Assembly: GCF_000003815.2 (NCBI RefSeq)
Contig: NC_049997.1
Location: forward strand, 3,051,735-3,115,734
Reading direction: 5' to 3'
Length of the DNA stretch: 64,000 nucleotides
Origin: Branchiostoma floridae
Taxonomy: Eukaryota > Chordata > Leptocardii > Amphioxiformes > Branchiostomatidae
The notes under the pieces are model-generated. The model saw only the letters and a program-made list of their open reading frames with translations. It ran no database searches and had not been told where the DNA came from. Positions 6,501-44,173 of this stretch are shown in pieces; the stretch's first letter is position 1, and every line of letters starts with the position of its first letter. The translations under genes were made by a program, and so were the position numbers.

Positions 6501-9500
6501 ATCGTTCATTCATTGCATCAGAACTAGGGCTGGGTACCGGTACAGAAAATTCAGGTCCAGGTCCGGTTCAGGTCCAGAGGATCAGGTCCGGACCTGAACC
6601 TGGACCTGATTCAGTATGACTCATACCAATGGTCCATTTCATTACAAAGAAATCTGTTTGGTGAAGTATTAGACTTACACTGGCGTTTTAAAATCCTACA
6701 ACGCTAACTGCAACTGTACGATTGGCTGTAAAACTCGGTAGAAATTACTTTAAACTCTACTCTACTTCACTCTTGTTATTTTCTTCCACCTGCAAGCGCC
6801 AAAACGTGTAAATGCCTGATAAAATAATCTGTTAATTTTCTAATCGGTCCAACATCCGGTCTACCTAATTTTTTCAGGTCCGGTTATCTGGACCGGTCCA
6901 ATAAGAAAAACCGGTTTTGTACCGGTACGCTGTACCGATACCCAGCCCTAATCAGAACAAATCATTACTCACGATTCCACCATGATGACGCATAGCCATC
7001 AGCTGGTCGAAAACGCTCTCGAAGAACTTGTAGGACTTCTTAGGGAAGAAGTCCCAGTTTATGGCCTCCAAGATGGGCTTCATGATTTTCGGGAAGCAAA
7101 CTGCAGAAAGTAAGAAAGATATAGTATGCTGTAGTATATTCCCAGCTGAGTGCCCCGCGAACTATAGAAGCAGAAATTTTCTTTGTATTTTCATTTTCTT
7201 TCGGAATTTTCATTTTCGTGGACATTTTCATTTTCTGTATGCATTGCGATTAATCCACCTATTACACGCCGAAATGAGCAGTAAGATCAGTTGATATAAA
7301 AAGGTTAGCACAGTCACAATAGGTCAAATAAGACTGTAAAAGAATTTTGTACATATGGGCCACCGTGCATAAAACGTGTCGAGTAAGTTTTTTCTTTGTT
7401 GCTGAAAGAAAAAAAAATTAAAGATGGCTTACTGAACAGCCACACCACCGGGTTCTTGAAGTCGAACTTCAATCCCTGCTTTCCGTGGATCACGAACGGG
7501 TCCTCAGGGTTCCCCTGGGAGTCTATCTCAGTACCAAACGCTGTGCTGGCGATGGCATCCATGGTAAAACCCCCAGTCAGTCTGGAAAGCNNNNNNNNNN
7601 NNNNNNNNNNNNNNNNNNNNNNNNNNNNNNNNNNNNNNNNNNNNNNNNNNNNNNNNNNNNNNNNNNNNNNNNNNNNNNNNNNNNNNNNNNGTAGGGCGCG
7701 AGACACGAAGAATTGTACAAAATACAAAGCCAGATAAAAACGCCTAAAAAAACGTCGAGAAACAGCCTGAGCCAAACCTGTTTGGAGAGTAGCGCAATGC
7801 GTTCTTTTACGTGTAAAGTATATTTGTAATCATATGTCTATTTTACTGCATATATTAGTGATCAAAAACTATCTTGTTAGAGAGACATGTTTTTTTAATG
7901 ACAGACTTACTCTCTTGCTTTAAAGGGTTTGCCGGTCTTTGCGGATTCACCGACTTTTTCTGCAAGTATGTTTGCACAACGATTCAGTTGTTCTAACATC
8001 TGAAACATAAAAACAAGCTTTCGTTAGCAGAAATGCTTAGCTCCAATTCGATTTTTCGTTTAGCTTTGATGACTGCCTTTTGCCGAACGTTAAAAAAACA
8101 TTTGTCACCGCCCGGGATCGAACCGGGGACCTTGCGCGTGTGAGGCGCACGTGATAACCACTACACTACGGTGACTTAGCACGAGTTGTTGAGAAGATGT
8201 CATATCAGTTCTATTGCTATGTGTACAGTACTTTTAGAAGCCATGTTTTAGATTAGTATTGGAAGTCATGTCACCATATGTATTTATCCAAACCTTTATA
8301 GTTGTACCAGTTGTACCACGTACCAGTTTGAGTTTGCCGCTGCTGAAGGCAGGTGTGAGTGTGGTCCTCACGTTCTTCCAGTCCTCACCACTCAGGTTGA
8401 TGAGGTATCGGCCTTGCGGTGTGGTCCTGAGAGTCATGCTTTCAGGCTATTGACAACAATAAATGTTACGTCAGAAAGCCTGAGCTAGTCCACCATACTT
8501 TTTAACGTCAAGTCGTCTATGAATCCTTCAAAAGTCGTTATTCCTCATTATGCAAACTAAAGGAGTGGAAAAAAAGAGATTTCTGACAACAAAGTGGAAG
8601 ACACAATAGTCTCCCAAATATAGAAAGTTAGGAATGAAAACAGTGACATAACGCATGTGGACACTGTAACAATAAACGTGAATAGCCAACTCACATTGCG
8701 ACGCGAAAACTTGTGAAACTGCTTGACGAAAATCTCACGTAACATCTCCGGATCAGAAACCATCAGGACTGGGTTTGATCCCGAAAATACCCTGTAGGCA
8801 CAATAGTTTTCGAACGTTATTACGGCATCAATTGTATCCGCCATTTACAGAAAAAAAACATGCGGCGTTCTCTCTATGAACCTCTTTGCCTCACTGTCTA
8901 TCCGTCTGTCCACCTGTCTTTCTTTCTCTCGGTAGAATTTGAAGCGTTTACTTTGAGACAAAGCGCACTGATTTCCCGACAGGTAGTAATACAATACGGC
9001 TTCGCTTCGATTCCCTTTCTAGTCAAACACAGAATGTCACCTCTACTCTTATTCATAAGTGCGATGGGCAATTCTAAGTGTTGAGGTTCATGCCTACGGC
9101 TAACGCTTCAAGCTCCTTCTTGAACAACGCCGCCAGGATTAGGTCACCATCCTGGGATCCATACGTGTATCTTTGAGTATCTTTCATCCAAATAACCACT
9201 AGTACCGTATTTAACTCAAGAAGCCCCATGTTTTAACCAGTCTAAAACAAATTTATGAAAGATAAGCTGCACAGTAATTTGAATGGTACCTACCCATACA
9301 CCTCTCCATATTGTCGCATCATCTGAACTTGGTAGTCTGGAGCCCAGAAACCCTGGGAAAGAAAATGATTTTCTTCATGGTCATTAATCAATAACTTGTA
9401 TGTACAGTATGGTTGAAATGTACATAAAACTTTTACAGAAATAGAGCCCTAAACTGAAGACATATCAATAAAAGAATAAACCGACAGAACCATGCCATCA

Positions 9501-11837: not shown

Positions 11838-12251
11838 CTTCAACACAAAATCTTACGCCAACTTTTGGTATCAAACCGTCATGGGACAAGCCAACGTCTA
11901 CGTGCAAAAGAGAGGGAGCTGCAGTGCCGTAAACAGTCGCCTCCAATGTCCACTCGGACGCTGACCTTCGAACTATGACATTGTTTTGAGAGATCTCGCA
12001 AGTGCGTTTGTTGAGTGAGGTGTGTCGGAAAATGAATACAGCTGTGTGTGTTTTTACATCATATTTCAGACGTACTGATGACTATATAATTTCTGTTGAA
12101 ATGTTTACAAGCAATGTATTCTTCAATCGAAAGAATTGCCCCCCCCCCCCCCTTACTTGTAAAATAGGACAATCCGAACGCCCTCGGGTCAATGCCACAA
12201 GGTTATGCAAACAAAAAAAATTGGCGTGTTTGCTGGTGAAACGCTGTAAAA
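11838..12251. promoter_or_regulatory. Shared 5' interval of divergent P450 genes
   Basis: This 414-bp interval separates the start of the CYP3-like gene (minus) from the start of CYP2-like gene A (plus), so it must hold both 5' UTRs and probably both promoters. It contains a poly-C tract near 12139-12153. I see no convincing TATA box for either gene. A bidirectional promoter is an inference from geometry only. Confidence 0.4.
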
Positions 12252-15240
12252 ATGGAGTCAGCCGTGCCTTTTGTGAGCGGTTTACTCGCCAACCTGACCC
12301 TACAGTCCACCCTGGTTCTCGTCCTGGCCTTCCTGACGACCTACTGGCTCCTGGGCGCAGGTGGTCGGCAGAAGAACCTTCCGCCGGGCCCGAGAGGCCT
12401 GCCCCTGCTCGGCAACCTCCTCAGCTTCCGCCCGAGCCGCTTGTTGTCCAACCTGGCGGCATGGCGGCAGCAGTACGGGGATGTTTTCTGTGTGAGGATC
12501 GCCAACAGGCTGGCTGTCGTGCTCAATGGGTAGGTTTGAAACGTACTTGTACAATGACAGGGCAGGATTGAGGGGGTGGGGGGTCCGGGGACGACAAGAA
12601 CAATGGAACACTGATTGAATGGCACACAACGGCTCATAGCCTAGGTACCATCCTCCGTAGTTACCGCTGGCGTAATCTTTTCCTTTGGTAAACACAGTCA
12701 TATTAGGCCACAGCATATAAATTTTATTGGAAATCAGCGCCCTCCATAATTTTTGTAACGTACATGATGTATAGCGACAGTAAAATAGCACCCAAATGTC
12801 CAAGTACAAATCCTTATTTGGGCCTCCATAATCTCCATCTGTGCATGTGTATTTGCATTCATTCTTCGTTTTATCCCCAAACGGGCTTGTATGCTATAGT
12901 GGCCGCCCACTGGTTTTGAACAGTTGAGGTCTCATACCTCCATTATATTATAGACCGTATCATTGGATTCACTGTTAGAATACCTTCTAAGACCGAATGT
13001 CCAATAGGAAAACACTCTTTCTGGATATGTTTTGCTTTCTATCATAAGCACACTTGTTGGTCGGGAAATTTGAAAAATGTCACCCAAATCTAGCGAAACA
13101 ACAATAATTATCGAATTTCAAACTTATTATCGGCTGACTATGGCGATGTGGGGGAACGAGGTTTAGCACATAGTAAGAACATATCACATGGCAATTTACA
13201 ATATCATATATGTTTCCCTAAGTCTATTCCTAGGCGTAACAATGTTGATAAAGTATACGTAACAATGTTGACTTGTTTCAATTCTAGACACAAGGCTATC
13301 CAGGACGCGCTCGTCAAGCAACCTGAAGTATTTTCCAACCGCCCTCCCGCAGTCGTCGATTCAGCCAATGACCAAGGTAGGTACGGAAGGGAAAGGGATG
13401 GAAAGAAAAGACTGGGTGTAGATGCTATCTCCAAGCAGATCCTACGGTAGCCGATGCTCACTCCTTGGACGGCTACACTCCTTTGCTTTGTCAGCTTTTG
13501 ATAATATCTCATGACACCATAGGATCTGCTTTGAGATTAATGTAGGGAGTATATGTATTTATCGTTAGATCTTTGCACGCTAAGAATCATGCAAAAACGA
13601 AATTACATAAAGCTGTCTGGTAAAACAGTTTTTTTAATACATTTCTCTCCGATTCGGGAGAATTGTGCAAAATATAACAATGCGCGAGTGAAAATATTTC
13701 TTGTATTCGAATTCCACAGGAGTTGTCATGGCCCAGTACGGGGAAGGTTGGAAGGTGAAACGCCGACTAGGTCTGACCGCTCTCCGTCAGTTCGGTATGG
13801 GCAAACGAAGTCTGGAGGGTAAAATCACAGAGGAGGCTCGCGCCGTGTGCGACATCCTTGCGGAAAAAGATGGCGCTGCAACGGACATATCTCTTCTTTT
13901 GTCCAACGGCGTATCTAACGTTATCTGTTCCATGTCGTTCGGTGAGCGATTCGAATATAATGACACGGAGTTCCAGAGGCTCATGCGACTGATGTCAGAG
14001 TTAGTTACGGGATCTGCCATTTCCCGGTTTAACCCCTACGTACGCAAGTTGCCATTTATCAAAAAGGGAGTGGAGAGTCGAATGAAAATGGCCAAAGAGA
14101 TCACTGAATTCATCAAAGCAAAAATCAAAGAACACAAAGACACTTTCGATCCAGCCGACATCCGGGACATTATCGACGTGTATTTGATGGAGACCCAGCA
14201 GCAGATCCCGGATGACGGGGACCGTACCATTACAGAAATGGGGATGATCAACACGATGAGAGATCTATTTATCGCCGGAGCAGAAACTACGGCTACGACC
14301 TTGAAGTGGGGTCTGCTGTATCTGGCGCGCCACCTGGAGGTTCAGCGAAAAGTGCAGGATGAGATCGACCAAGAGTTTGGCTCCAGCCCCCCAACGTTGT
14401 CTCAGCGAGGAAAGCTGCCCTATACCGAGGCCACCATACTAGAAATCCAGCGGATCCGACCTATCGTACCGCTCAGTGTTCCTCATACCACCTCTGCTGC
14501 CACGGTGCTGCACGGCTTCGACATCCCGGCCAACACTTTCGTCATCCCGAACCTGTGGTCCGCCATGATGGATCCGACAGTGGCGCCTGACCCTGAGACC
14601 TTCAACCCGGACAGGTTTCTGGACGAAGATGGAACTCATGTGCGTCCCGAGTGGTTCATTCCATTCTCGCTAGGTGAGTTATTGTTAACACAGTGTTGGC
14701 TAATATTTCCTTGGCACGTAGGTATTTATAATGCAGGCTAATGAGTGCTTAATTTTTTAATAGATTTTTTTTGTCCCAAGCAGGCTAGTGGTCAATAAAT
14801 GACAAATGGGGGGGGGGGGATATATTAAATGAATGGAATGGAGGTAAAAGACAGATAAGTATCAATTGATATGGCTGATATAATTAATATAATTCTAATT
14901 TGACTTGTGATTGGATGGCTCAAATTGAAAACAAGATGGCGGCTGCATGACGTCAAAGTCCAAAATGGCAGCGCCCGATGGTGCTGACGAGAACAATATA
15001 GTTTGGCATCAGTCAAACCTATTGAAATCATTTTTGTCCTCATATCCTTCCCTAGGGCGGCGTCAGTGCCTTGGTGAGCAATTAGCCAAGATGGAACTTT
15101 TCATCTTTCTGACAACCTTGCTGCAGCACTTCACATTCAAATTGCCAGACGGCGCCCCTGCACCATCAATGGACGGCTCCTTGGGTGTTGTTCTTGCGCC
15201 AGACCCCTACCAGATTTGCGCCATTCAAAGAGATAATTAG
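12252..15240 (+). CDS. CYP2-family cytochrome P450, paralog A
   Basis: Microsomal P450 of the CYP2 clan. Four exons with consistent phases: 12252-12529, 13288-13376, 13720-14673, 15056-15240, giving 501 aa, the normal CYP2 length. Domains in order: N-terminal membrane anchor (residues about 8-35), hinge NLPPGPRGLPLLGN (about 42-56), C-helix WKVKRRLGL, I-helix AGAETTATT (about 308), ExxR EIQR (about 363), FNPDRF (about 416), and heme loop FSLGRRQCLG with Cys445. All catalytic landmarks are intact. Exon 3 is unusually long (954 bp) compared with vertebrate CYP2 genes of about nine exons, so introns have been lost. It is the mirror partner of the minus-strand copy at 32515-36588. Start chosen because it opens the anchor and matches the paralog exactly. 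Confidence 0.96.
13428..13536. mobile_element. Small foldback MITE in CYP2-A intron 2
   Basis: Inverted ends TCTCCAAGCAGATCCTACGG and CATAGGATCTGCTTTGAGA enclose about 110 bp with an inner GGCTAC pair. A related fragment (AAGCAGATCCTACGGTGCC) lies at about 53418-53480. No coding capacity. Confidence 0.65.
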
Positions 15241-17522
15241 AACCCAGCGCTGATTCATTTCAAGTTATTATTAGATTACAAAAAAACAATATTTTGTTGA
15301 TAACTAGCGAGGTCAAAGTCTGGCTATTCGGTACAGTGTCGTCACTTGTACACTAATAACAGGTGCAGAATTGACGTATCTAATAAGGAGGAATAAACAA
15401 AGTAAACACTTATTACTTTTTAAAATTAACTTTGACTTTATTCATATTGTAGACGATACAATACATGTGGGTCACAGGCAGCGATTGACGGTGTTGTGAC
15501 CTACACATTAACACATACAGAACATTGATACATCAAGTGCTAGCAATGAATAGATACTGTCTAAAATTACTTTTTTTCCCTATTTCATGAAACCATATTA
15601 ATCCTATTACATTATATATGTATGTAGCCATCCATGGTTAACCGAGTTACTGAGCTAGTGTTTGTAAGTGTACACATGTAGGTGTAGTTTTCAGTGAGTT
15701 TTGATGTTTACGAAGGCCATTGTCGTCTTTTCTCAGTGTGACAGTGTGACAGAGCGTGCACGCCAATGGGAAGGGTCTTCTTCGGACGGAAAGTGAAGCC
15801 GCGCTCTTCTAGTCATTGTGCTTGTCGATAAAGGCCATAAAGAGAAATTCACGGTACAATGAAGACTACTGCCACTTGCTTCTGTGGACCAGTGGTAGAG
15901 CAGCTCTTCAGTGAGTTAAACTACTTCGAGATCACATCCACTTATCCCTTGCCCAATAGGCATGTAGGTTTTGTGTTCTCGTGTGGGCACGGCGAACCAA
16001 AAAGCTGCCCGGATTGCTAAAGACAGAACCGGGTCAGACCAGTGCTCCGGGGCTGAGGAGATTGCATCCTCCTGACGCTCAGACTAGTTTCCCCATCCTG
16101 ATTGCCAGCCTCAGGGAAAGAGGGGGAATTGGTAGGTTTAGGTTTAGAATTATAATATTTCATAACAATATACAAACTGGGGTCCTTTGTGGTCTTTTTC
16201 TTCGACGTATATGCATTGTTCTCCAGGTAGATTTACCGGAGGCGTAAGATATTATCAAAGCTGGCCATGGAGTGTACTACGTACGTAGCCAGCCAAAAGA
16301 AGTGTCCATCAACCACTGGGAATCTGCCCTCACTCAACCAGGGTGGAAATAATACCTACTCAGCAAGCACAAGTTGATTAACAGTTGGATGTTGATAGCC
16401 TTTCTTCTAACCGACTGAGAGATTCTCGTTGGCTTATGGACACTCCTGACGCCGACTACACCCCTTGGACAGGTTTCTGGAGTGGTTCATTCTATTCTCG
16501 CTAGGTGTGTTATTGTCAGAACAACTTGTTGGTTAATTTCCCTACTAGGCCAGCTCGTGCACCGGTTTTTATTTTTGTTCCGGTATCCCCTAAACTATTG
16601 ACTTAAACCATGAAGCAGCGTCCGACACAGAGAGAAAAAGAATGAATGGCAGACTCGCATCCGCAATTTTGTTTTGTTTTGCTTTCATTAGATTGTGAAT
16701 AGCATTTATTGATAATCTGATAGTTATAATATACAAATTTAAATAGCAATTGTGACTGTGTGGCATACACTGGAAGTTATGTGCAAGTACAGCCTTTTGT
16801 CGTCAGTGTTTAAGCTGCCACAGAATGAGGTCAGACCAGTGCTCCGGGGCTGAGGAGATTGCATCCTCCTGACGCTCAGACTATTAAGTTCTCACATCCT
16901 GGTTTCCAGCCTCAAAGGAAGAGGGGGAATTGACTGGTTAGAATTTCTCTGAATCATAATATTTCATGACGAGAAAGCGATGCGAACAGAGGGTCCTTTC
17001 GGTCTTTTACTTTGGAGTATATGCAAAGGATAGATGATAGAATTGGTCGTTGCATGCAAAAAAAGGATATTGCAATATTTGTGACTTTGTGAATGTAATT
17101 CTTGTAAGCAGTTTCATGGCTGATGTAGGCTATGACAAGAGTTAACATGGTCACGGAACATGTCGACAAAAGAGCCAAAAAGTATAATAAGATTTTAAAT
17201 ATTATATGTACATTACCAAAGATTATTTCTGTAGACTTACAACAATCTATGGGCAATTGTTATACCGAATACATCAAAGCAATTGAACAGCATAAATATG
17301 CACAATATAATTACAATGTATGCATAACAAAAGAAAAGGCAGAGGTATATACATTCTAGAGTTCACTCAAATCATGTGCATTGAATACTGGCAACCTCAT
17401 CAAATAATAAGTCAGTGGATCTTTAAAAATTCTCTTAAGTGAAATCTAGTTCTACAAAAAGGTTTATAGACAGTTTTCAACAACACCAACATTTCCTTCG
17501 CACTCACTCCCAAAAGCAATAT
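15241..17522. other. Convergent intergenic region, arm A
   Basis: Between the 3' ends of CYP2-A and LRR-A. AATAAA at about 15392 may serve as the CYP2-A poly(A) signal. The phrase CAGACCAGTGCTCCGGGGCT occurs at about 16033 and again near 16836. The same landmarks recur inverted at 29389-32514 (for example AAACCATGAAGCAGCGTCCG near 16607 and its complement near 30543), showing the duplication includes this non-coding DNA. No gene is supported. Confidence 0.7.
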
Positions 17523-20060
17523 TTACCACAATATAGTGCTGTGTGGTGTGTTACGGGTTCCCTCCCCTGATGGTATCTCCCATGGCCAGTAGGTGTTAGG
17601 CAGTGTGACAAGGGGGAGGGACGAACGCCGTAGTGGTGTGTTACGGGTTCCCTCCCCTGATGGTATCTCCCATGGCCAGTAAGTGTTAGGTAGTATGACA
17701 AGGGGGAGGGACGAACGCCTTGGTGTGTTACGGGTTCCCTCCCCTGTTGGTATCTCCCATGGCCAGTAAGTGTTAGGTAGTGTGACAAGGGGGAGGGACG
17801 AACGCCGTGGTGTGTTACGGGTTCCCTCCCCTGATGGTACCTCCCATGGCCAGTAGGAGTTAGGTTGTGTGACAAGGGGGAGGGACGCACGTAGTGATGT
17901 GTTATGGGTTCCCTCCCATTGCCAGTAGGTATCAGGGCTTCCGTAAGTAGTGACACAGCTGTGATGTCGGACTTCTCTAGGCCTTGCGTACATACCAGGA
18001 AGTCTGTCAGTTGTAGAATGGACACCGCTCCTATCATATATTCTTCTATTCTGCCGGGTCTTTGTGACTGTTGGAAGCGATGGTTCTGCAGCAGCAGCGT
18101 AGGGAGTGATAGGATAATCATCAAGACTGTCATGGTCTGCTGCCCTGGTAGGATGGAGGGATGAAGGCAACGACCAACGGGACAATTTAACGTCTAGTCG
18201 TTCACGTCTTCTCGTAGGGAGTGTGAAAGTCTTCTCAAAACGCGCTGATTTTGCATCGGCATTGTCTGTAACCTCCCAGTATAAGCGAGACAGAGGCCGC
18301 TGAGCAAGAGCTATGTGATCTGGAATCTCTGCGTATGTGTGTGGGAGGGCAGGTAGAGGACGCTGCGCAGCAGCAAGATGGTCTGGAATCTCTGAGTAGC
18401 TGTTTGAGGCGTACGAGACTGTACAAAGACCTGCTGGTAGTGTTCTACACGAGGCAAGACCGGGTGGATCAACGGTGACCTCTGCACCCTTCTGTCTTCT
18501 CTTCAGCAGGCAACCTATAGCTACAAGGATCAACACGAACAGAATCCCCACTACAACGCCTATGTAGACAACTATGGGTCTCAGAACACCCTGTGATTCC
18601 GACGAGTCTTGTTCAGGGTTGGTCCGGAGAGTGCGGGCCTGTGGCGGAGACATGGATGCCATTGTGGTCTGGTTCTCCGATCTGTACCCTTCTGTAGTAT
18701 TACGTGGAGTTTGGGGCTTAGATGTTGGGATGCCTACTACATGTAAGTCAGCGTTGCTTCCAGGGCATGGAGTTGGAGTCTTCCTTGGGGCTAGGGGGAT
18801 GGTAAAGAGCAAGGGTGGATCGTGTGTGGAGATCAAAACGCAGGTTATATTCTTAGTGTTTATGTGGGCGGTCCCTGTGTAGGTACTGTTGTTTAGGATG
18901 CCTGAATCAGTGATACTGGCTGTGTTTGTGTCTTGGCTGTGTTGGGGGTTGAAGAGCACCATTGCTACAGATGTATTCCCTGCTCCCATAGACACCAGTT
19001 GAAAGGTCGAGTTACCCTTCAAGTCGACATTAACGCCCATGTTGCGTTCCCACACCTGCCGGCACCGGTCTGTGGTCTTCTTAGCCAGTTCATCATCGGT
19101 GAGAACAACAACAAAGGGTGGCCGAACGGAGAGTGTGCGTTCGTCAATAGTCCATATATCTCCTGCTGGGTGATATTTCCGCTCCAGACGCCTCTCGAGT
19201 CTTCCTTGATCCGTTGTGACGCTGAATGAGATAATGTTAACATAAACGTCCAGGTTCCATGTCATACTCTGTGAAACTACACCACTAATCGTCATCAAAC
19301 CGTCTCCGCCCAGTGAGAAGATGGAGTAGTCCTCCGTCCTCCACAAGGTCTCCCTTCCAAGACAAGACAGGTGATTTCCTTCCAGGAGCAGATGATTGAG
19401 AGGCATGTTGTGAAATACACCTGGAGGAAGGTGCGTTATCTTATTCTCATCTAAGTTCAGCTCCGTCAGTTTGTTCAGACCGTGGGACCAGGCAGGGTCT
19501 ATGTGCTGTAAGTGGTTACCCTCCAGGCTCAGCGTCAGAAGGTTTGTCAAGTCCTCAAAACATTCCGGGTCGATCTCTGATATTCTGTTGTAGGTCAGTC
19601 TCAGCGCAATAAGCCCTGTCAAGCCAGCAAACCAGCTCCGTTTGACACGTGTCAGTTTGTTGGAATTCACGCCCAAAATATTCAGGCGTCTAAACCCACT
19701 AAAGGTACCCCCCTCTACGTCTACGATCCCACCTTCCACCAAGACTAAGTTTTCCACTACAGAGTGGTTAAAGGCCGATAGCTTCTTTGCTGACAGGAGA
19801 CCGAAGGGGTGTCCCCTTATTGCGAGATTTGGCGCTACCCTTATTACACATGGTTCTACTGGGACAGGTGCACCAGTGACAATGACGTTTGTATCCTGAC
19901 ATAAGATACAGGTTGTTGTTATCCCCATCATGGCCTGACCACGCACACAGTCATTCCAGCCTTCTAGAGTACAGAGAGGGGTGCACAGGCTAGCTGAGGC
20001 TGCGGCGGTAGTCACCAGGGTCAGAAAAACCAACATGGCGATTCTCGTTCGAAGAGCCAT
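17523..20060 (-). CDS. LRR transmembrane receptor, paralog A
   Basis: Single-exon gene, 845 aa, predicted type I membrane protein; not matched to a named gene. Residues 1-24 are a signal peptide. A cysteine-containing region follows (about 26-71), then five or so leucine-rich repeats (about 100-235; for example LTELNLDENKITHLPPGVF), a non-LRR extracellular region with many NxS/T sites, and one membrane helix near 495-518 (VYIGVVVGILFVLILVAIG) followed by basic KRRQK. The cytoplasmic tail has YSEIPDH (about 555) and YAEIPDH (about 577) separated by RPLPALP, an SH3-ligand-like motif. The C-terminus is a minisatellite of 29-30 residue units containing LPNTYWPWEIP. Ligand unknown; an immune or adhesion role is only a guess from architecture. 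Start matches the paralog. Confidence 0.88.
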   Translation of the reverse strand: MALRTRIAMLVFLTLVTTAAASASLCTPLCTLEGWNDCVRGQAMMGITTTCILCQDTNVIVTGAPVPVEPCVIRVAPNLAIRGHPFGLLSAKKLSAFNHSVVENLVLVEGGIVDVEGGTFSGFRRLNILGVNSNKLTRVKRSWFAGLTGLIALRLTYNRISEIDPECFEDLTNLLTLSLEGNHLQHIDPAWSHGLNKLTELNLDENKITHLPPGVFHNMPLNHLLLEGNHLSCLGRETLWRTEDYSIFSLGGDGLMTISGVVSQSMTWNLDVYVNIISFSVTTDQGRLERRLERKYHPAGDIWTIDERTLSVRPPFVVVLTDDELAKKTTDRCRQVWERNMGVNVDLKGNSTFQLVSMGAGNTSVAMVLFNPQHSQDTNTASITDSGILNNSTYTGTAHINTKNITCVLISTHDPPLLFTIPLAPRKTPTPCPGSNADLHVVGIPTSKPQTPRNTTEGYRSENQTTMASMSPPQARTLRTNPEQDSSESQGVLRPIVVYIGVVVGILFVLILVAIGCLLKRRQKGAEVTVDPPGLASCRTLPAGLCTVSYASNSYSEIPDHLAAAQRPLPALPHTYAEIPDHIALAQRPLSRLYWEVTDNADAKSARFEKTFTLPTRRRERLDVKLSRWSLPSSLHPTRAADHDSLDDYPITPYAAAAEPSLPTVTKTRQNRRIYDRSGVHSTTDRLPGMYARPREVRHHSCVTTYGSPDTYWQWEGTHNTSLRASLPLVTQPNSYWPWEVPSGEGTRNTPRRSSLPLVTLPNTYWPWEIPTGEGTRNTPRRSSLPLVILPNTYWPWEIPSGEGTRNTPLRRSSLPLVTLPNTYWPWEIPSGEGTRNTPHSTILW
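17548..17910 (-). repeat. Coding minisatellite, 87-90 bp units (LRR-A tail)
   Basis: About four units with the start phrase TTACGGGTTCCCTCCCCTG at 17551, 17641, 17728 and 17815, so spacing is 90, 87 and 87 bases, all multiples of three. The expressed frame gives LPNTYWPWEIP units. A second minus-strand frame is also open over 17504-18133 and reads GHGRYHQGREPVTHH, the frame used by the paralog. Confidence 0.93.
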
Positions 20061-26403: not shown

Positions 26404-29388
26404 ATGGCTCTTCGAAACAGAATCGCCATGTTGGTTTTTCTGACCCTGGTGACTACCGCCGCAGCCTCAGCTAGCCTGTGCGCCCCTCTCTGTACTCTAG
26501 AAGGCTGGAATGACTGTGTGCGTGGTCAGAGAATGATGGGGAGGACAACAACCTGTATCTTATGTCAGGATGCCGACGTCATTGTCACTGGTGCACCTGT
26601 CCCAGTAGAACCATGTGTAATAAGGGTAGCGCCAAATCTCGCAATAAGGGGACACCCTTTCGGTCTCCTGTCAGCAAAGAAGCTATCGGCCTTTAACCAC
26701 TCTGTAGTAGAAACCTTAGTCTTGGTGGAAGGTGGGATTGTAGACGTAGAGGGGGACACCTTTAGTGGGTTTAGGTTCCTGAAGACTTTGGGCCTGGATT
26801 TCAACAGGTTGACACGTGTCAAACGAAGCTGGTTTGCTGGCTTGACAGGGCTTATTGCGCTGAGACTGACCTACAACAGAATATCAGAGATCGACCCGGG
26901 ATGTTTTAAGGACTTGACAAACCTTCTGACACTAGAGCTGACGGGTAACCACTTACAACACATAGACCCTGCCTGGTTCCACGGTCTGAACAAACTGACG
27001 GAGCTGAACTTAGATGAGAATAAGATAACGCACCTTCCTCCAGGTGTATTTCACAACATGCCTCTCAATCATCTGCTCCTGGAAGGCAATCACCTGTCTT
27101 GTCTTGGAAGGGAGACCTTGTGGAGGACGGAGGACTACTCCATCTTCTCACTGGGCGGAAACAGTTTGATGACGATTAGTGGTGTATGTCCACAGAGTAT
27201 GACATGGAACCTGGAGGTTACTTATAAAAACATCTGGCTTGATGTGCCCGCCTTCTCGTTTAGCGCCACGACTGATCAAGCTCAAGGAAGACTCGAGAGC
27301 CGTCTGAAGTGGATATATCACCCAGCAGGCTCTACTAGAGATATTTGGACTATTGACGAACGCACACTCTCCGTTCCGCCACCGTTTGTTGTTGTTCTCA
27401 GCGATGATGAACTGGCTAAGAAGACAACAGACCGGTGCCGGCAGGTGTGGGAACGCAACATGGGCGTTAATGTCGACTTGGAGGGCAACTCGAGCTTTCA
27501 ACTGGTGTCTATGGGAGCAGGGAATACATCTGTAGCAATGGTGTTCTTTAACCCCCAACACAACCAAGACACAAACACAGCCAGTAGCACTGATTCAGGC
27601 ATCCTAAACAACAGTACCTACACAGGGACCGCCCACATAAACACTAAGAATATAACCTGCGTTTTGATCTCCACACACGATCCACCCTTGCTCTTTACCA
27701 TCCCCCGAGCCCCAAGGAAGCCTCCCAGCCCATGCCCTGGAAGCAACGCTGACTTACATGTAGTAAGCGTCTCGACATCCAACCCCAAAACACCACCTCT
27801 TACTACAGAGGGGTACAGATCGGAGAACCAGACCACAATGGCTTCCAGGTACCCGCCACAGGTCCGCACTCTCCGGACCAACCCTGAACAAGACTCGTCG
27901 GAATCACAGGGTGTTCTGAGACCCATAGTTGTCTACATAGGCGTTGTAATGGGGATTGTGTTCTTGTTGGTCCTTGTAGCTATAGGTTGCCTGCTGAAGA
28001 CACGACAGAAGGGTGCAGAGGTCACCGTTGATCCACCCGGTCTTGTCTCGTGTAGAGCACTACCAGCAGGTCTTTGTACAGTCTCGTACGCCCCACACCA
28101 CTACTCAGAGATTCCAGACCATCTTGCTGCTGCGCAGCGTCCGCTACCAGCCCTCCCACACACATACGCAGAGATTCCAGATCACATAGCTCTTGCTCAG
28201 CGGCCTCTGCCTCGCTTATACTGGGAGGTTACTGACAATGCCGATGCAAAGTCAGCGCGTTTTAAGAAGACTTTCACGCTGCCCGCGAGAAAACGTAAAC
28301 GTCTGGACGTTAAATTGTCCCGTTGGTCGCTGCCTTCATCCCTCCATCCTACCAGGACAGCAGACCATGACAGCCTTGATGCTGACCCTATCACTCCCTA
28401 CGCTGCTGCTGCAGAACCATCGCTTCCAACAGTCACAAAGAACCGGCAGAATAGAAGAATGTATGATATTAGCGAGGTTCATTCTACAACTGACAGACTT
28501 CCTGGTATGTACGCAAGGCCTAGGGAAGTCCGACATCACTGCGGCAATGGGAGGGAACCCGTAACACACCACTACGGCGTGCGTCCCTCCCCCTTGTCAC
28601 ACTACCTAACACCTACTGGCCATGGGAGATACCAACAGGGGAGAGAATCCGTAACACAACACGGCGTTCGTCCCTCCCCCTTGTCACACTACCTAACACT
28701 TACTGTCCATGGGAGATACCAACAGGGGAGGGAATCCGTAAAACAACACAGCGTTCGTCCCTCCCCCTTGTCACCCTACCTAACACTTACTGGCCATGGG
28801 AGATACCAACAGGGGAGAGAATCCGTAACACACCACTACGGCGTGCGCCCCTCCCCCTTGCCACACTACCTAACACCTACTGGCCATGGGAGATACCAAC
28901 AGGGGAGGGAATCCGTAAAACAACACAGCGTTCGTCCCTCCCCCTTGTCACCCTACCTAACACTTACTGGCCATGGGAGATACCAACAGGGGAGGGAATC
29001 CGTAACACAACACGGCGTTCGTCCCTCCCCCTTGTCACCCTACCTAACACTTACTGGCCATGGGAGATACCAACAGGGGAGGGAACCCGTAACACACCAA
29101 GGGCCAGGGCGTGGGTCTCTCCCCACCCTACCTAACACCTACTGGCCATGGGAGATTCCAGAGAATATGACCCCAAAATTACCTAACACCTACTGGCAAT
29201 GGGAGACCCCAGGGACCCTACGGGAGGGAGCCCTTAACACACCACGGCGTGTGCCCCTGCCAAAATTACCTAACACCTACTGGCCATGGGAGACCATAGG
29301 GGAGGGAGCCCGCGTAACACACCACGGCGTGCGTCCCTCTCGACCCTACCTAACACTGGTAGTATTGGTGATGTTGAAAACTCCCTAA
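26404..29388 (+). CDS. LRR transmembrane receptor, paralog B
   Basis: Single-exon 994-aa partner of LRR-A with the same plan: signal peptide, cysteine region, LRRs (about 100-235), glycosylated stalk, membrane helix near 508-532, basic stop-transfer, YSEIPDH (about 566) and YAEIPDH (about 587) around RPLPALP. The stalk has an extra segment near residues 270-310 compared with paralog A. The tail differs most: a net 34-base shortening relative to A near 28545 puts the minisatellite in another frame, giving GHGRYQQGRE...VRPSPLSHYLT units. Around 29100 an 88-base unit returns to the LPNTYWPWEIP frame, and near 29310 it shifts again before the stop. Function unknown beyond a likely surface receptor. 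Start matches A. Confidence 0.88.
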   Translation: MALRNRIAMLVFLTLVTTAAASASLCAPLCTLEGWNDCVRGQRMMGRTTTCILCQDADVIVTGAPVPVEPCVIRVAPNLAIRGHPFGLLSAKKLSAFNHSVVETLVLVEGGIVDVEGDTFSGFRFLKTLGLDFNRLTRVKRSWFAGLTGLIALRLTYNRISEIDPGCFKDLTNLLTLELTGNHLQHIDPAWFHGLNKLTELNLDENKITHLPPGVFHNMPLNHLLLEGNHLSCLGRETLWRTEDYSIFSLGGNSLMTISGVCPQSMTWNLEVTYKNIWLDVPAFSFSATTDQAQGRLESRLKWIYHPAGSTRDIWTIDERTLSVPPPFVVVLSDDELAKKTTDRCRQVWERNMGVNVDLEGNSSFQLVSMGAGNTSVAMVFFNPQHNQDTNTASSTDSGILNNSTYTGTAHINTKNITCVLISTHDPPLLFTIPRAPRKPPSPCPGSNADLHVVSVSTSNPKTPPLTTEGYRSENQTTMASRYPPQVRTLRTNPEQDSSESQGVLRPIVVYIGVVMGIVFLLVLVAIGCLLKTRQKGAEVTVDPPGLVSCRALPAGLCTVSYAPHHYSEIPDHLAAAQRPLPALPHTYAEIPDHIALAQRPLPRLYWEVTDNADAKSARFKKTFTLPARKRKRLDVKLSRWSLPSSLHPTRTADHDSLDADPITPYAAAAEPSLPTVTKNRQNRRMYDISEVHSTTDRLPGMYARPREVRHHCGNGREPVTHHYGVRPSPLSHYLTPTGHGRYQQGRESVTQHGVRPSPLSHYLTLTVHGRYQQGRESVKQHSVRPSPLSPYLTLTGHGRYQQGRESVTHHYGVRPSPLPHYLTPTGHGRYQQGRESVKQHSVRPSPLSPYLTLTGHGRYQQGRESVTQHGVRPSPLSPYLTLTGHGRYQQGREPVTHQGPGRGSLPTLPNTYWPWEIPENMTPKLPNTYWQWETPGTLREGALNTPRRVPLPKLPNTYWPWETIGEGARVTHHGVRPSRPYLTLVVLVMLKTP
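28545..29345 (+). repeat. Coding minisatellite, 87-90 bp units (LRR-B tail)
   Basis: CATGGGAGAT recurs at 28621, 28708, 28795, 28885, 28972 and 29059 (spacing 87, 87, 90, 87, 87), then at 29147 after 88 bases. The 88-base step changes the reading frame. Final units are shorter and more diverged. About eight units against about four in LRR-A. Confidence 0.93.
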
Positions 29389-30345: not shown

Positions 30346-31445
30346 CTTAAAGTGGCAGCTTAAACACTGACGACAAAAGGCTGTACTTGCACATAACTTC
30401 CAGTGTATGCCAGACAGTCAAAATTGTTATTTAAATTTGTATATTATCAATATCAATAAACGTTCTTCACAATCTAACGAAAGCAAAACAAAACAAAATT
30501 GCGGATGCGAGTCTGGCGTTCATTCTTTTTCTCTCTGTGTCGGACGCTGCTTCATGGTTTAAGGGATACCGGAACAAACATGTGATGATACATCAAGCTA
30601 AATTGGTGACCGATGCACGAGCTGGCCTAGTAGGGGAAGTAATACCTTGGTTGCAAGGAAATTAACCAACAAGTTGTTTTGACAATAACACACCTAGCGA
30701 GAATGGAATGAACCACTCATTACGAACGTGAGTTCCATATCATTCGTTCAGAAACCTGTCCAATTTGTGCAGTCGGCCTAAGGAGTGTCCATTGTTTATA
30801 TTAATTGGTTTGGCTGTTCAAAACATACAGCCAGGGTTGCCCAACTAGCCTATGGCTATTACAAAGGGATAGCCCTGCTGACAGAAACAGAGAAAATACA
30901 TATGGATTTGGACAGGATACTTATCAATAACAATTTTCTAAGTTAATAAAGGATAGGAATGAAAAAAAAAGAACATTTAATCTTATTTTATATATACATG
31001 GTGTAGAATGACCGAAAGGAGTGTCCGTTGGCCACCGGGAATATGTCAGTCAGTTAGAAGAAAGGCTATCAACATCCAACTGTTGCCTTATCAACCTGTG
31101 CTTGCGGAGTATGTATTATTTTCACCCTGGTTGCGTGATGGCAGATGGATGAAGGACACTCCTGTTGGCTTGCTACACTCCTTGGCCAGCTTTGATAATA
31201 TCTTACGCCTCCGATAAATCTGCATGGAGAACACTGCATATATGTCAAAGAAAAAGACAAAAAAGGACCCCCAATTCGTATCTTTTTATGAAATATCATG
31301 ATTTTAAACCTAAACCTACCGATTTCCCCTACTCCCCGGAGGCTGGCAATCAGGATGGGGAAACTAGTCTGAGCGTCAGGAGGATGCAATCTCCTCAGCC
31401 CCGGAGCACTGGTCTGACCTGATTCTGTCTTTAGCAATCCGGGCA

Positions 31446-31797
31446 GCTTTTTGGTTTGTCGTGCCCACACTAGAACACACAACGTGGGCAAGCGAACAAT
31501 GGAAGCTTTTTGGTTTGCCGTGCCCACACTAGAACACACAGCGTGGGCAAGCGAACAATGGAAGCTTTTTGGTTTGCCGTGCCCACACCAGAACACACAA
31601 CGTGGGCAAGCGAACAATGGAAGCTTTTTGGTTTGCCGTGCCTACACTAGAACACACAACGTGGGCAAGCGAACAATGGAAGCTTTTTGGTTTGCCGTGC
31701 CTACACTAGAACACACAACGTGGGCAAGCGAACAATGGAAGCTTTTTGGTTTGCCGTGCCTACACTAGAACACACAGCGTGGGCAAGCGAACAATGG
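31446..31797. repeat. 59-bp minisatellite, six units
   Basis: Units carry AGCTTTTTGGTTTGCCGTGC and ACACAACGTGGGCAAGCG with a 59-base period, almost identical to each other. Arm A has only one unit at the matching place (about 15974-16008). The plus-strand frame of about 105 codons across it is an artefact of the repeat. Confidence 0.92.
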
Positions 31798-32514
31798 AAG
31801 TGTTATCGAATTAGATTAGTTGCCTGAAGAGCTACTCGTCCACTGGTCCACAGAAGCCAGTGGCAGTAGTGTTCATTGTACCAGGGAATTTCCCTTGCTG
31901 TCTTTTTTTTGACAAGCACATTATGACTAGTGCGTGGAGCGCGGCTTCACTTTCCGTCCGAAGAAGACCCTTCCCATTTGCGTGCACGCTCTGTCACACT
32001 GTCACACTGAGAAAAGGCGAAAATGGCCTTCGTAAACATCAAAACTCACTGAAAACTATACCTACATGTGTACACTTACAAACACTAGCTCAGTAACTCG
32101 GTCAACTATTTATGGCTATATATATGATGTAACAGGATTGATATGGTTTCATGAAATAAGAAAAAAAAGTAATTTTAGACAGCATCTATTCATTGCTGGC
32201 ACTTGATGTAGAATGTTCTGTATGTGTTAATGTGTAGGTCACAACACCAGCAATCGCTGCCTGTGACCCACGTGTATTGTATCGTCTACAATCTGAATAA
32301 ATTTCAAATTAATTAGAAACAGTAATAAGTGTTTACTTTGTTTATTCCTCCTTATTAGATGAGTCAATTCTGCACCTGTTACTAGTGTACGTGTACAAAT
32401 GACGACACTGTACCGAGCAGCCAGCTGCAGCAGACTTTCACCTCGCTAGATATCAACAAAATATTAGTTTTAATTTTTATCTAAGAATAACTTGAAATGA
32501 ATCAGAGCTGAGTT

Positions 32515-35500
32515 CTAATTATCTCTTGGAACGGCGCAAATTTGGTAGGGCTTTGGTGCAAGGACAACACCCAAGGAGCCATCCATTGATGGTGCAGGGG
32601 CGCCGTCTGGCAGTTTGAATGTGAAGTGCTGCAGCAAGGTTGTCAGAAAGGTGAAAAGTTCCATCTTGGCTAATTGCTCACCAAGGCACTGACGCCGCCC
32701 TAGGTAAGGAATAAATAAGCAAAAATGAAATATTTGCAAGTTGGGCGACAATCAAATGATCACTAGGTCTACGGACTAAACTTCAAGGAAATCAAACAGC
32801 AAATTTAAATTGAAAATGTATATCAAAAAAGGTTACGGCCGTGTGGCGCGCTGGAGAAGTTAAGCAACGCGACGGTCCGGACAGTTCTTGGATGGGAATC
32901 CCCCAACCAAGGACGGTCGGATCGCTGTAGCCGGCCCAAGCTTGGTCATTCCACGAAATTGTCTTCCGGGAGGGACGTAAAACGTGTGCTCGAGGAGGTG
33001 CCTCAACCACGTTAATCAGCCTCATTATCCATTGGGTACCTACTGGCTGGCAAAATACACCAGATGGTTATTAGATCTATTATAAAGATACCTTGGTTGC
33101 AGGGAAATTAACCAACAAGTTGTTTTGACAATAACTCACCTAGCGAGAACGGAATGAACCACTCAGGACGAACAAGAGTTCCATCTTCGTCCAGAAACCT
33201 GTCCGGGTTGAAGGTCTCGGGGTCAGGTGCCACTGTCGGATCCATCATGGCGGACCACAGGTTCGGGATGACGAAAGTGTTGGCCGGGATGTCGAAGTCG
33301 TGCAGCACCGTGGCAGCAGAGGTGGTATGAGGAACACTGAGCGGTACGATAGGTCGGATCCGCTGGATTTCTAGTATGGTGGCCTCGGTATAGGGCAGCT
33401 TTCCTCGCTGGGACAACGTTGGGGGACTGGAGCCAAACTCTCGGTCGATCTCGTCCTGCACTTTCCGCTGAACCTCCAGGTGGCGCGCCAGGTACAACAG
33501 TCCCCACTTCAAGGTCGTAGCCGTAGTTTCTGCTCCAGCGATGAACAGATCTCTGACCGTGCCGATCATCCCCATTTCTGTAATGGTACGGTCCACGTCA
33601 TCCGGGGTCTGCTGCTGTGTCTCCATCAAGTACACGTCGATAATGTCCCGGATGTCGGCTGGGTCGAAAGTCTCTTTGTGTTCTTTGATTTTTGCTTTGA
33701 TGAATTCAACGATCTCCATGCTCATCTTTGCTCGATTTTTGCTTCCCTCGTTGAAGAAGGGCAGCTTACGCACCAAGGGGATAAATCGAGAAATGCCGCC
33801 AGCACTTACCAACTCTGACATCAAACGCATGAGCCTCTGGAACTCTGCGTCGTTATATTCGAATCGCTCACCGAAGGACATGGAACATATAACGTTTGAA
33901 ACGCCGTTGGACAGAAGAAGAGAGATATCCGTTGCAGTTCCATCCTTCTCCGCAAGGATGTCGCACACGGCGCGAGCCTCCTCTGTGATTTTACCCTCCA
34001 GACTCCGTTTGCCCATACCGAACTGACGGAGAGCGGTCAAACCGAGTCGGCGTTTCACCTTCCAACTTTCCCCATACTGGGCCATGACAACTCCTGCGGA
34101 ATAGAGAAAAACGTCCACATGCAAAGTTGTACGCTGTACTTTAATCTAGACTGTATACTGCGCAATACTGAAGCCCGTTTACGCAACCAGTCGCGCATGC
34201 GTAGGTCAAAGTTGAAGTCCATGAAAAATTCACAGCACTTGCAAACTGACCGACGAATCGAAGGTCACTTGTACCTCAACATATGAATGTATAAAGTATG
34301 GCGGAGAAAAGAACCGTTTCCAGCCATCATGGGCCTTCACGTTTGACCTGCTCATGCGCAGTTTCATCCACGAACGTGCTCATTCTCATGAGTGGAGTAC
34401 AAAAATGCAGGAAACTTTCTATTCGGCCGACATTGACCATATCATTTGTTTGTTGTTGTTTTTTCTGGCTGTCAAGCATACATGTATAACGGTTATATGA
34501 AATATTTCTTTTTTGTTTTCTTCTCTTTTCCTATCGTACACACCTTGGTCCTTGTCAGAAAAACGGAATGGAGAAGGGCGGTCCGAAAACACTTCAGGTT
34601 GCTTGACGAGCGCGTCCTGAATAGCCTTGTGCCTGTAATAATGCAAAATATTAATATTGTATAGATATCTCCTTCTTCAAACACTTATGCAAAGATAGGA
34701 ATAAGGGTAGCCATTGGAATTGATGGTATCAGTCCAGTGTTCTATCTGATGATTGTGTCTGTCTATTTTGGTAAGTTTTCACCTAGCCTGGATGACAACT
34801 GAACTAACTGGATGACAGACTGTTTCCAGGCCCTACAAAGGTCAACTCTTCTGGTCTAGGGTGAATATGTTTCCGAAAAAGATTTACAACAGGCACCCTG
34901 AGTTAGCTATAGACCCCGTACGATGGAAATTATTGAGATCGGGCCAGTGGTCTGGTATCCAGGATAGTTTTCACTACATACCAGCCTCGTTCGTCAACCT
35001 CAGCGCCACAGCAACGTTTTTCATTGCCACTATTGTTAATGTTTGTACTGGATTTACTTGTATTAAACTAAATGATAGTAGCCGTACAAAGTTCAATGTT
35101 CACTACAGCGGTCGACAGGTTTCGTATTACCGCTGTGGATAGAAAATCCGTTTGGAGAGAGTAATCCATATGCTTGGTTTACTCCGCAGAGGCCTAAATA
35201 ATACCCCTATCGTTACAGATTGTTGTCGTTTCTGTGGTACAAATCTTCGTGTGAATGGGCAACTGGAAAATCTCAGAAGGATTTACGGTGCCGAAGCAAA
35301 AGTTTAATCAGGGCATAACAAGTAAATCTTATGGACGATATCCTCTTAAGACCCCGAATTTGAGAGAGGGCGAAAAAAATAGGTAAAAAGTACAAGATAC
35401 TGTATGTAGATTTTCCCACGGAGGGTGGTATCCAGGTTATTGTAATACGGGCCATTGTGTGTTATTACCTCCATGAAAAATTAAGGTATAGTTTTTGGTG

Positions 35501-36588
35501 TGTCTGTGTGTGTCTGTGTGTCTGTCTGTGTGTGTCCGCATATTTCTGGTCAGCATAACTTTAGAACCTCTGAATGGATTGTAATGATATTTGGTATGTG
35601 GGTAGGTGTTTGGAAGACAAAGGTCAAGGTCGATTTGGGGCCCTATGGTGTGTGACCTTGGTACTGCAGCAGAACTTTGATTTTTTGTATCTTTTGACCT
35701 GAACATGCTATGGTCCTGATTTCTTGGTGGCAGATAGCTTGCGACGTAGGGAAAAGGGTATATAGGCTTGGGCCCCCTATCGGCTTGCTCTGGAACTGCA
35801 GGGGCAAGTTTGTCAAAATCTTCCAAGGAGCATAATGGAACATAGGAACGATGAATTTCTATGATATTTAGCATCTAGGTATGTTTGGCAGAGATATACA
35901 TAATGAAGTGCAAATTATGCACATTTGGACTTGATTTGCATCTTTAATGAGGAAAATATATATTTCCAGTATTTTTCATTATAGGAATCAAATACACGTA
36001 ACATATGTAATTTGTGACAGGTGGAAGATTAGCAGATACCAATTATGCAAATAAGTCCCTAATTTGCATAATGAATGTGAATGTGTCCTAATTCATGTAG
36101 TAAGTGTAATTAATGATTGGATTGTCAACATTGTGACCTGTGTAAGTTATGCAAAGGTGTATATAACCAAGCATAAATTATGCAGATATGCAAGTCATTT
36201 ACATAATCAGAATATTTCATGGAGGTGTGAGGTCTCCGAACTCTTGTTCAATCAGTGTTTTGTCGTCCAAGACCATAGCATGTCATCGTACGTGTACGTT
36301 ACAAACCTACCCATTGAGCACGACAGTCAGCCTGTTGGCGATCCTCACACAGAATACATCCCCGTACTGCTGCCGCCAGGCCGCCAGGTTGGACAACAAG
36401 CGGCTCGGGCGGAAGCTGAGGAGGTTGCCGAGCAGGGGCAGGCCTCTCGGGCCCGGCGGAAGGTTCTTCTGCCGACCACCTGCGCCCAGGAGCCAGTAGG
36501 TCGTCAGGAAGGCCAGGACGAGAACCAGGGTGGACTGTAGGGTCAGGTTAGCGAGTAAACCGCTCGCAAAAGCCACGGCTGATTCCAT
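32515..36588 (-). CDS. CYP2-family cytochrome P450, paralog B
   Basis: Mirror partner of CYP2-A. Exons on the minus strand: 36311-36588, 34544-34632, 33140-34093, 32515-32699. Exon lengths (278, 89, 954, 185) are identical to those of paralog A, giving 501 aa. Landmarks intact: hinge LPPGPRGLPLLGN, I-helix AGAETTATT, EIQR, FNPDRF, heme loop FSLGRRQCLG. Differences from A cluster in the end of exon 2 (SDRPSPFRFSDKDQG against SNRPPAVVDSANDQG) and in the F-G region of exon 3 (SAGGISRFIPLVRK and FNEGSKNRAKMSMEI). Intron 1 is enlarged by a dispersed repeat and intron 3 by a 5S-derived SINE-like insert. Both copies look functional. Confidence 0.96.
32830..33050 (+). mobile_element. 5S rRNA-derived SINE-like element
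   Basis: ACGGCCGTGTGGCGCGCTGG, GAAGTTAAGCAACG, and CTTGGATGGGAATCC follow the order of the 5S rRNA gene, including the A-box region (AAGTTAAGCAACG) and the C-box region (CTTGGATGGG), ending GCTGTAGCC (about 32934). A non-5S tail follows with CTTCCGGGAGGGACGTAAAA. It lies in CYP2-B intron 3, antisense to the gene, and is absent from CYP2-A intron 3. Either a 5S-headed SINE (SINE3 type) or a 5S pseudogene. Confidence 0.75.
34861..35142 (+). other. Unrecognised open frame in CYP2-B intron 1
   Basis: A 93-codon plus-strand frame (MFPKKIYNRHPELAIDP, later FFIATIVNVCTGFTCIK). No family recognised, and nothing supports expression. It is probably a chance or transposon-derived frame. Confidence 0.2.
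35440..36235. mobile_element. Dispersed repeat with ACCTCCATGAAA termini
   Basis: Starts near TTACCTCCATGAAAAATTAA and ends near ATATTTCATGGAGGTGTGAG, inverted ends of about 14 bases. The inner sequence (GGTCAGCATAACTTTAGAAC, GGATTGTAATGATATTTGGT, ATCTTCCAAGGAGCA) recurs at about 44850-45215. No transposase is visible. It lies in intron 1 of CYP2-B, close to exon 1, and is not in CYP2-A. Confidence 0.7.
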
Positions 36589-38018
36589 TATTACAGCGCA
36601 CTATCGCCAAATGTTACTCTACTCTAAACGTTGCTTGAGGTCATATTTACATACAGTTACAAGTAAAATGGCCTTTGGAAGATCACATGATACTACTAAG
36701 TATTTTACAGGGGGGGGGGGGGTGGCCTCCGTTGGACCATGGAAGAGTAGCTTGCTTCCGAAAACTTCCACAGGCACCATGTTCCCGTGAACATGTACTA
36801 ATCAGTTTTAGGATATCAGGCATGCACAAAGCAAAGAACATATCATGACGATCACCCGCTAACGACTCACAGGACGGACGAACGAGGTTATAGTTCAAAG
36901 TTCAGTGTCCGCACGGATGGTGGAGACGTTTGCGCTATTATTAGGGCTTGCAAGAACTTTCTAAAACGAAAATACGCGAATCACAACATTAAAATGCTGC
37001 ATAGAAGAAGAAAATAGAAAGTAACATATGATAAAGTATATTTCTTTTATTGATACGAGTGACATTATGACGCCATCAAGCTAGTGTTATTTTGTATTGT
37101 TATTAACCCGCTTTCTCACATGGTAGGATGCTATTTGTGTCTCATCTATTTACCTGTCCTGTACAAACATTGTATTTGCATGTCTTAAATTTCAAAATAA
37201 ATCTGACGTTTCATAAACTGTACATGTGTGTGTTGACAACTGTACCGCTAAATTATCACCAATGCAACATATGCAGTTATGTATTGTCATATTCACGAAC
37301 CCGTCAACATTTTTAGAGTCCTGACCGTTGTATACACTTTCTGGCCACTTTCAATCAAACATATGTTGTAGTGATCACGACAATTCGACGAACAACGACA
37401 GTGTGACGAACAACGCCATCTATTTTCTATTAAATAGAACGATCTCGGGCTTTTCTTTCACATCCAACTATAATGTTGAGAGGAAGTGAGGACACCGCTG
37501 CGGGGGTTTACACCTACAGTGCAGAGTCCCGTATGTTGTGTTGTGGAGGCTGTCAACCTCTACGTGCACGTGAGTCGGCCCACCTGTGAAGACAAAATAG
37601 GTCTCAAAACTCCAATATGTTCCTCAGTCTACTCCTCCTTGGCCGGTAAAGCAATAATGCCACGCTGACTTAATATTATTATTGACATCCTCTGGAGACC
37701 CCAATCTAATACGCGAGGGCTAAAACAACAAGAAAAATCCACCAAAACTGACTTAACATTCAGTCCATTCTTTCCCAGATTTAGTTTGTCGTATGTTGAC
37801 CTCTATTAAGACTGTAAGAGACAATCGTCGCCTTCTGAATTATGTTCATATTGCCATTCCTGTTTAATGTTATAAAGAGGGAACAAGGTACTCTCCAAGC
37901 AGAGGTTGGTGGGGAAAATCATGACCTTTTCCATATAATTATGATCAGCCTTCCCGCCAACTTGTCCTGACAATATGCCCCCTTACCTGGTACCCTGGTA
38001 AAAGAATACAGCAATAAA
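36589..38018. other. Intergenic, no gene seen
   Basis: Contains the CYP2-B 5' flank, a poly-G run (about 36711-36721) and otherwise plain AT-rich DNA. No spliced or intact frame is supported. Confidence 0.5.
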
Positions 38019-43949: not shown

Positions 43950-44173
43950 TCTTGAAATAGTTAAACTGTAATTTCCAACACCAAAAATTGGACTCACCCA
44001 AATTGTCGACTGTACAGCATCANNNNNNNNNNNNNNNNNNNNNNNNNNNNNNNNNNNNNNNNNNNNNNNNNNNNNNNNNNNNNNNNNNNNNNNNNNNNNN
44101 NNNNNNNNNNNNNNNNNNNNNNGGGTGAGTCCAATTTTTGGTGTTGGAAATTACAGTTTAACTATTTCAAGAA
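43950..44173. repeat. Gap flanked by inverted repeats
   Basis: 100 N at 44023-44122. Left flank TTCTTGAAATAGTTAAACTG ... TTGGACTCACCC reappears as its exact inverse immediately right of the gap (GGGTGAGTCCAATTTTTGG onward), about 50 bp each side. Either a hairpin-forming element that stopped sequencing or a palindromic mis-join. Confidence 0.88.

Follow-up and report, generated by a model that had tools for sequence, protein, structure and literature searches.

In the amphioxus Branchiostoma floridae, two neighbouring open reading frames (ORFs), LRR-A and LRR-B (hereafter A and B), are predicted to encode leucine-rich repeat (LRR) transmembrane receptors ending in the same minisatellite. A previous sequence-only reading had proposed that each ORF reads the repeat in a different frame, and that a single indel, located just before the array, swaps the whole cytoplasmic tail without truncating it. 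Does one indel account for the difference between the two tails, and is there any sign that the alternative frame is used? The window analyzed here is a stretch of 64,000 nucleotides (contig NC_049997.1, positions 3,051,735 to 3,115,734, forward strand); coordinates given below are those of the window. The analysis points, with good though not complete confidence, to a coding minisatellite under weak or no constraint, shifted in frame by a 34-bp deletion in B, and partly restored downstream.

Paralogous receptor ORFs within an inverted duplication

17523-20060, minus strand: LRR-A, a single ORF of 845 aa (ORF prediction and Pfam LRR_8); LRR ORF of arm 1 of the inverted duplication
13692-14741, plus strand: P450 ORF of arm 1
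26404-29388, plus strand: LRR-B, the paralogous ORF, 994 aa (ORF prediction and Pfam LRR_8); LRR ORF of arm 2
33108-34145, minus strand: P450 ORF of arm 2

Leucine-rich repeats are present in both ORFs, as indicated by Pfam LRR_8 matches (E 3.5e-28 for A, 9.8e-31 for B), and solved LRR proteins in PDB are matched by A with a best E of 8.7e-35. In both translations, a putative cytoplasmic tail, a single membrane segment and a start resembling a signal peptide could be recognized by eye. No WSC domain was matched in A or B by Pfam at E 0.001, and the A protein gave no match against viral contigs. AATAAA signals are found 813 and 950 bases beyond the stop of A and 1067 bases beyond that of B, too distant and too few to support any argument.

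An inverted duplication occupies 13286-34634, each arm being composed of one P450 ORF and one LRR ORF, and A and B would be receptor paralogs derived from it. Matching pieces, in pairs of at least 120 bp, span about 13.3 to 34.6 kb, and those of at least 480 bp are 74-90% identical. An inverted pair of 318 bp (12242-12559 and 36281-36598) is 96% identical, closer than any other piece listed for the duplication, and would represent either a younger mobile element or the result of gene conversion. Elsewhere in the window, a 204-aa ORF at 48771-49385 matches the Pfam HLH and Myogenic Basic domains, as a relative of the MyoD family.

Over the 700 codons preceding the array, comparison of A and B gives a dS of 0.100 and a dN of 0.057, with a ratio of 0.57, which hardly differs between the ectodomain (0.57) and the membrane segment plus the proximal part of the tail (0.56). 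The ratio is uneven along the sequence: 100-codon windows, leaving out the last one of only 12 codons, range from 0.38 to 0.80 (the latter in the first window), but reach 1.46 at codons 500-600. The 76 transitions and 60 transversions that separate the two sequences are enriched in synonymous changes over the neutral expectation, P being 0.002 at transition weight 1, 0.035 at weight 3 and 0.058 at weight 4. Gap lengths are divisible by three in all 3 pre-array gaps, versus 6 of the 13 found in the flanks, one of which is an edge gap. Because of the pre-array ratio, the synonymous excess and the gap lengths, A and B are both taken as coding genes, under moderate constraint before the array.

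Since A and B differ at about 10% of synonymous sites, B is no foldback copy of the same molecule; this, the position of the only N runs in the window (7591-7690 and 44023-44122) and the fact that the B ORF remains open make it extremely improbable that an assembly error, be it repeat collapse or mis-joining, lies behind the 34-base and the other length differences described below, notwithstanding that tandem arrays within an inverted duplication are hard to assemble, and that a foldback or a haplotype join is conceivable.

Units and reading frames of the minisatellite

17543-17927, minus strand: A array, five anchored units (72, 87, 87 and 90 bp, plus a truncated last one), all in frame 1
28540-29100, plus strand: proximal part of the B array, a partial unit plus six anchored units, 187 residues in frame 2 (GHGRYQQGRE...), with four SxYxxL
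29052-29139, plus strand: B6, a unit of 88 bp, +1 with respect to 87 bp, which puts reading back in frame 1
29101-29313, plus strand: frame-1 stretch of B, 71 residues, including the end of B6, B7, B8 and the first part of B9 (YWPWE/YWQWE/YWPWE)
29314-29388, plus strand: end of B, beyond an extra CG in B9, with the final 24 residues in frame 2, followed by the stop

Tandem Repeats Finder identified an 87-bp unit in both genes, and units were then split at an anchor, which itself spells YW[PQ]WE, so that conservation of this motif is partly circular. The same program reports, in the rest of the window, arrays at 1556-2919 (145-bp unit, 9.4 copies, 93% matches), 38613-39146 (149-bp unit, 3.6 copies, 95% matches) and 31445-31800 (59-bp unit, 6 copies, 97% matches). 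By eye, the 59-bp unit resembles sequence near 15960-16010, which may, again judging by eye, be a tRNA-derived SINE.

All five anchored units of A have anchor phase 0 and read LPNTYWPWEIP in frame 1, as had been described. The B array is made of a partial first unit, followed by units of 87, 87, 90, 87, 87, 88, 51 and 87 bp, and by a last one running out of the array. Its anchor phase is 2,2,2,2,2,2,0,0,0: the first six anchored units are indeed read in another frame, frame 2, as previously suggested, but the next three are read in frame 1, and the protein ends in frame 2 again. At least three frame changes are therefore found in the B array tail, whose 282 residues correspond to 187 in frame 2, 71 in frame 1 and 24 in frame 2.

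The unit length of 87 or 90 bp, as originally given, holds for most interior units, the exceptions being A1 (72 bp), B6 (88 bp) and B7 (51 bp). In the same way, most units are free of stops in both frames, as stated, but not all. With the truncated A5 set aside, stops occur in frame 2 in two of the 13 remaining anchored units (B7 and B9), in frame 1 in one (B6, only after its +1) and in frame 3 in 12. Of the three distal units of B, which are divergent, B7 and B9 have frame 2 closed and B8 has it open, while YW[PQ]WE is kept in frame 1 in all three.

The proposal that one indel swaps the whole cytoplasmic tail did not hold. A proximal cytoplasmic tail of roughly 180 aa, containing YSEI, YAEI and YWEV, is common to A and B, and 71 of the 282 array residues of B are, as seen above, in the same frame as in A. 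Judging from the two translations, only the distal array would be affected by the frame change, and signalling is likely to be carried by the proximal tail, where the tyrosine motifs lie.

The junction preceding the array

17924-17960, minus strand: stretch of 37 bases found only in A, the last 13 unit-like in register (register by eye)
28540-28542, plus strand: putative site of the 34-bp deletion in B (3 bases versus 37 in A), which would have put the array in frame 2

The length difference at the start of the array was confirmed: between CGACATCAC and GGCAATGGG, 37 bases are found in A and 3 in B, with a net difference of 34, a count which rests on these two flanking anchors and not on a global alignment of A and B. 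Such an alignment was also tried for indel lengths and set aside, as it placed the gap at the start of the array elsewhere (41 bases, with the gap on the A side), since the units of B are more numerous.

By eye, the last 13 of the 37 bases of A (CCTGATACCTACT) resemble the unit (CCTAACACCTACT) in register, and B retains the remainder of the first unit. Both the 13 unit-like bases of A and this retention fit a 34-bp deletion in B. We infer the direction and the order of the changes from two sequences, and an unequal exchange, adding a piece to A, could also produce the 34-base difference. Frame 1 is favoured as the older one, because frame 2 is closed in B7 and B9 while YW[PQ]WE is kept in B7 to B9, the second point being biased by the choice of the anchor.

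The events may thus be ordered as follows. The minisatellite would form a C-terminal tail, probably disordered and under weak or no sequence constraint, varying in length by whole units, with frame 1 (LPNTYWPWEIP) most likely ancestral. In B, a 34-bp deletion would have taken away the beginning of the first unit, shifting the array into frame 2, open by happenstance; the +1 in B6, which together with -34 sums to -33, would have regained frame 1 ahead of the stops contained in the older distal units; and the +2 in B9 would have made the B protein end in frame 2. None of these changes would have touched the proximal tail or its tyrosine motifs.

Significance of the second open frame

17504-18193, minus strand: second open frame over the A array, 229 aa from stop to stop, 209 aa from an ATG at 18133 (ORF list)
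28524-29135, plus strand: frame 1, still open over the proximal B array, 203 aa, not used by the B ORF

The second frame of A is indeed open over 209 codons, as had been reported, but this openness is about what is expected by chance and is not surprising. When one unit was recoded synonymously, keeping the frame-1 peptide and the codon usage of the A and B genes, frame 2 proved open 48% of the time, and one or both of the alternative frames 58% of the time. Similarly, 45% of 1342 overlapping real in-frame windows of 87 nt, taken from A and B, would, on being tandemly repeated, leave an alternative frame open, and two or more frames were open in 33% of shuffled units. One open unit of 29 codons, once repeated, produces a long ORF, and the 209-codon frame is therefore largely the same unit counted several times. 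The possibility that an overlapping second gene is maintained in A was considered and rejected, given the chance level of openness, the lack of a synonymous excess in frame 2 (see below) and the closure of frame 2 in two of the three divergent B units. The second open frame of A is probably not translated.

Past the junction, B is open for 282 codons in the frame of the ORF, versus 7 and 197 in the other two. A shift into the remaining frame runs for 8 codons in A, and for 7 in B, before it meets a stop. Since two of the three frames are open, the other class of frameshifts truncates the protein within 7-8 codons; the expectation that indels do not cause truncation is borne out by the open B ORF, but applies to one class only.

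Sixteen distinct variants, found in 8 canonical units out of the 15 whole or partial units of both arrays, were used to evaluate selection on the repeat. Synonymous variants are 4 out of 16 in frame 1 and 4 out of 16 in frame 2, versus 4.7 and 4.9 expected, with no excess in either frame at a sample size which has little power; in frame 3 they are 5 out of 16. Because sixteen variants give little power, weak selection may still act in either frame. Private variants lean toward constraint in the frame that each gene uses, as 1 of the 9 variants found only in B is synonymous in frame 1 and 3 in frame 2, while 2 of the 6 found only in A are synonymous in frame 1 and 1 in frame 2, but with so few variants this trend carries no weight.

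The lack of detectable constraint in either frame, together with the frame-changing unit lengths of B and the status of both genes as ORF predictions only, would be compatible with an array which, in A, B or both, is removed by splicing or does not code for protein, the frame difference having no consequence at the protein level. We consider this unlikely, as both ORFs continue uninterrupted into the array, all units of A are frame-keeping (72, 87, 87 and 90 bp), and B is open past the junction much further in its own frame than in the other two. The persistence of an open B frame despite three frame changes could reflect selection for the presence of a tail.

Predicted consequences for the tail peptides

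If translated, the two frames would produce tails of different composition. The A array tail, 145 residues long, contains 11 W, 2 H and 11 R, whereas the 187 residues of the frame-2 part of B contain 0 W, 18 H and 19 R. In a scan by pattern only, which took in eight or nine patterns in all, RRSSLP, presumably a basophilic-kinase/14-3-3-like pattern, was found in frame 1 at positions 752, 781 and 811 of A, with no site of the RxxSxP type in the B tail. In the same scan, SHYLTL or SPYLTL, conforming to SxYxxL, were found in frame 2 at positions 761, 790, 849 and 878 of B, and SxYxxL was not found in the A tail. SxYxxL is ITIM-like, the ITIM pattern being described also in a report on amphioxus (PMC8211107).

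The three RRSSLP of A and the four SxYxxL of B might suggest an adaptive swap, the frame change having given B a new signalling tail, with tyrosine inhibitory sites in place of serine docking sites; in the same report, an amphioxus LRR receptor with the tail motifs DDYATV and HDYSEV is inhibitory on expression in Jurkat T cells (PMC8211107). By chance, however, an ITIM pattern is produced in 5.4% of the recoded units in which frame 2 is open and in 2.5% of open shuffled units, so that, with eight or nine patterns scanned, the recurrence of a single motif says little. Nor is there a synonymous excess in frame 2, and 71 residues of B are read in frame 1. An adaptive swap seems, on the whole, very unlikely. 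We regard as highly improbable the bolder idea of an evolvable switch, in which small indels exchange the multivalent RRSSLP docking set of frame 1 for the ITIM-like SxYxxL set of frame 2, paralogs or alleles toggle signalling partly and reversibly, and B has toggled three times. A shift by deletion within a weakly constrained coding repeat, partly restored downstream, remains the preferred reading.

Discussion

Frame-shifted coding repeats are known from other systems. In the MUC1 VNTR, an indel (MUC1fs, in ADTKD-MUC1) or an alternative start (MUC1-ARF) produces a repeat protein of different sequence (PMC5843638, PMC5074479). As in MUC1, A and B contain a tandem repeat within coding sequence, its unit length divisible by three, with a second frame that is open and that is read after an indel in the predicted ORF of B. 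In contrast, the MUC1 cases are human disease alleles or a separate ORF, and MUC1fs loses the SEA, membrane and cytoplasmic parts, whereas here the difference is between paralogs and the repeat is C-terminal (PMC5843638, PMC5074479). Single-base deletions in the VNTR of CEL (carboxyl ester lipase) similarly lead to a frame-shifted repeat near the C-terminus, with an aberrant, more basic tail; these are, however, rare human alleles cut by premature stops, while the B ORF is longer than A (PMC8692231).

Among paralogs, a frameshift which followed duplication replaced the C-terminal motif in one lineage of APETALA3 genes (euAP3), where, as with the ORFs A and B, paralogs use different frames of homologous DNA. 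Unlike the case described here, the euAP3 change spans many taxa and is reported to evolve as coding sequence, with no tandem repeat mentioned in the abstract (PMC1513400). A survey of 50 proteomes (2025) concludes that repeats often persist in shifted frames, as a source of new sequence with increased arginine content, to be compared with 19 R in the 187 frame-2 residues of B and 11 R in the 145 of the A array tail; the survey is in silico, and the words 'paralog' and 'amphioxus' are absent from its main text (PMC12871928).

In lancelets, unstable minisatellites known as 'mirages' have been described within genes but, unlike the array of A and B, they cross intron-exon boundaries (PMC3087553). 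The amphioxus receptor BbLcLRR, which inhibits T-cell signalling in Jurkat cells, is similarly a protein of the LRR-transmembrane type with tail tyrosines, in YxxV motifs, the YSEI, YAEI and YWEV of A and B being recognized by pattern only; it differs in having a WSC domain between the LRRs and the LRR CT, matched by Pfam in neither A nor B (PMC8211107). A second amphioxus LRR receptor is described as having no cytoplasmic tail (PMC10199209).

No earlier report of two paralogs sharing a repeat in which the reading alternates between frames was found among the matches listed from the open-licence literature, of which MUC1-ARF, the APETALA3 paper and the survey of frameshifted repeats were the relevant ones, and the string 'tywpwe' was not found in the open-licence literature searched. 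By analogy, the A/B case appears to be a variant of the known frameshifted coding repeats, of the MUC1 and CEL type, and of the euAP3 type of C-terminal frameshift, occurring between paralogs and within a repeat.

The published frameshifts in coding repeats that the search brought up comprise alleles causing human disease, a single alternative ORF and in-silico predictions. In A and B, adjacent paralogs differ in the frame used over most of a shared repeat, and in B the frames form a patchwork. If the arrays are untranslated, the locus would clearly illustrate how tandem repetition can give a single open unit the look of a long second gene. With both translated, it would provide a natural test of how freely one deletion can rewrite a receptor tail, and of whether short linear motifs may arise at once in many copies.
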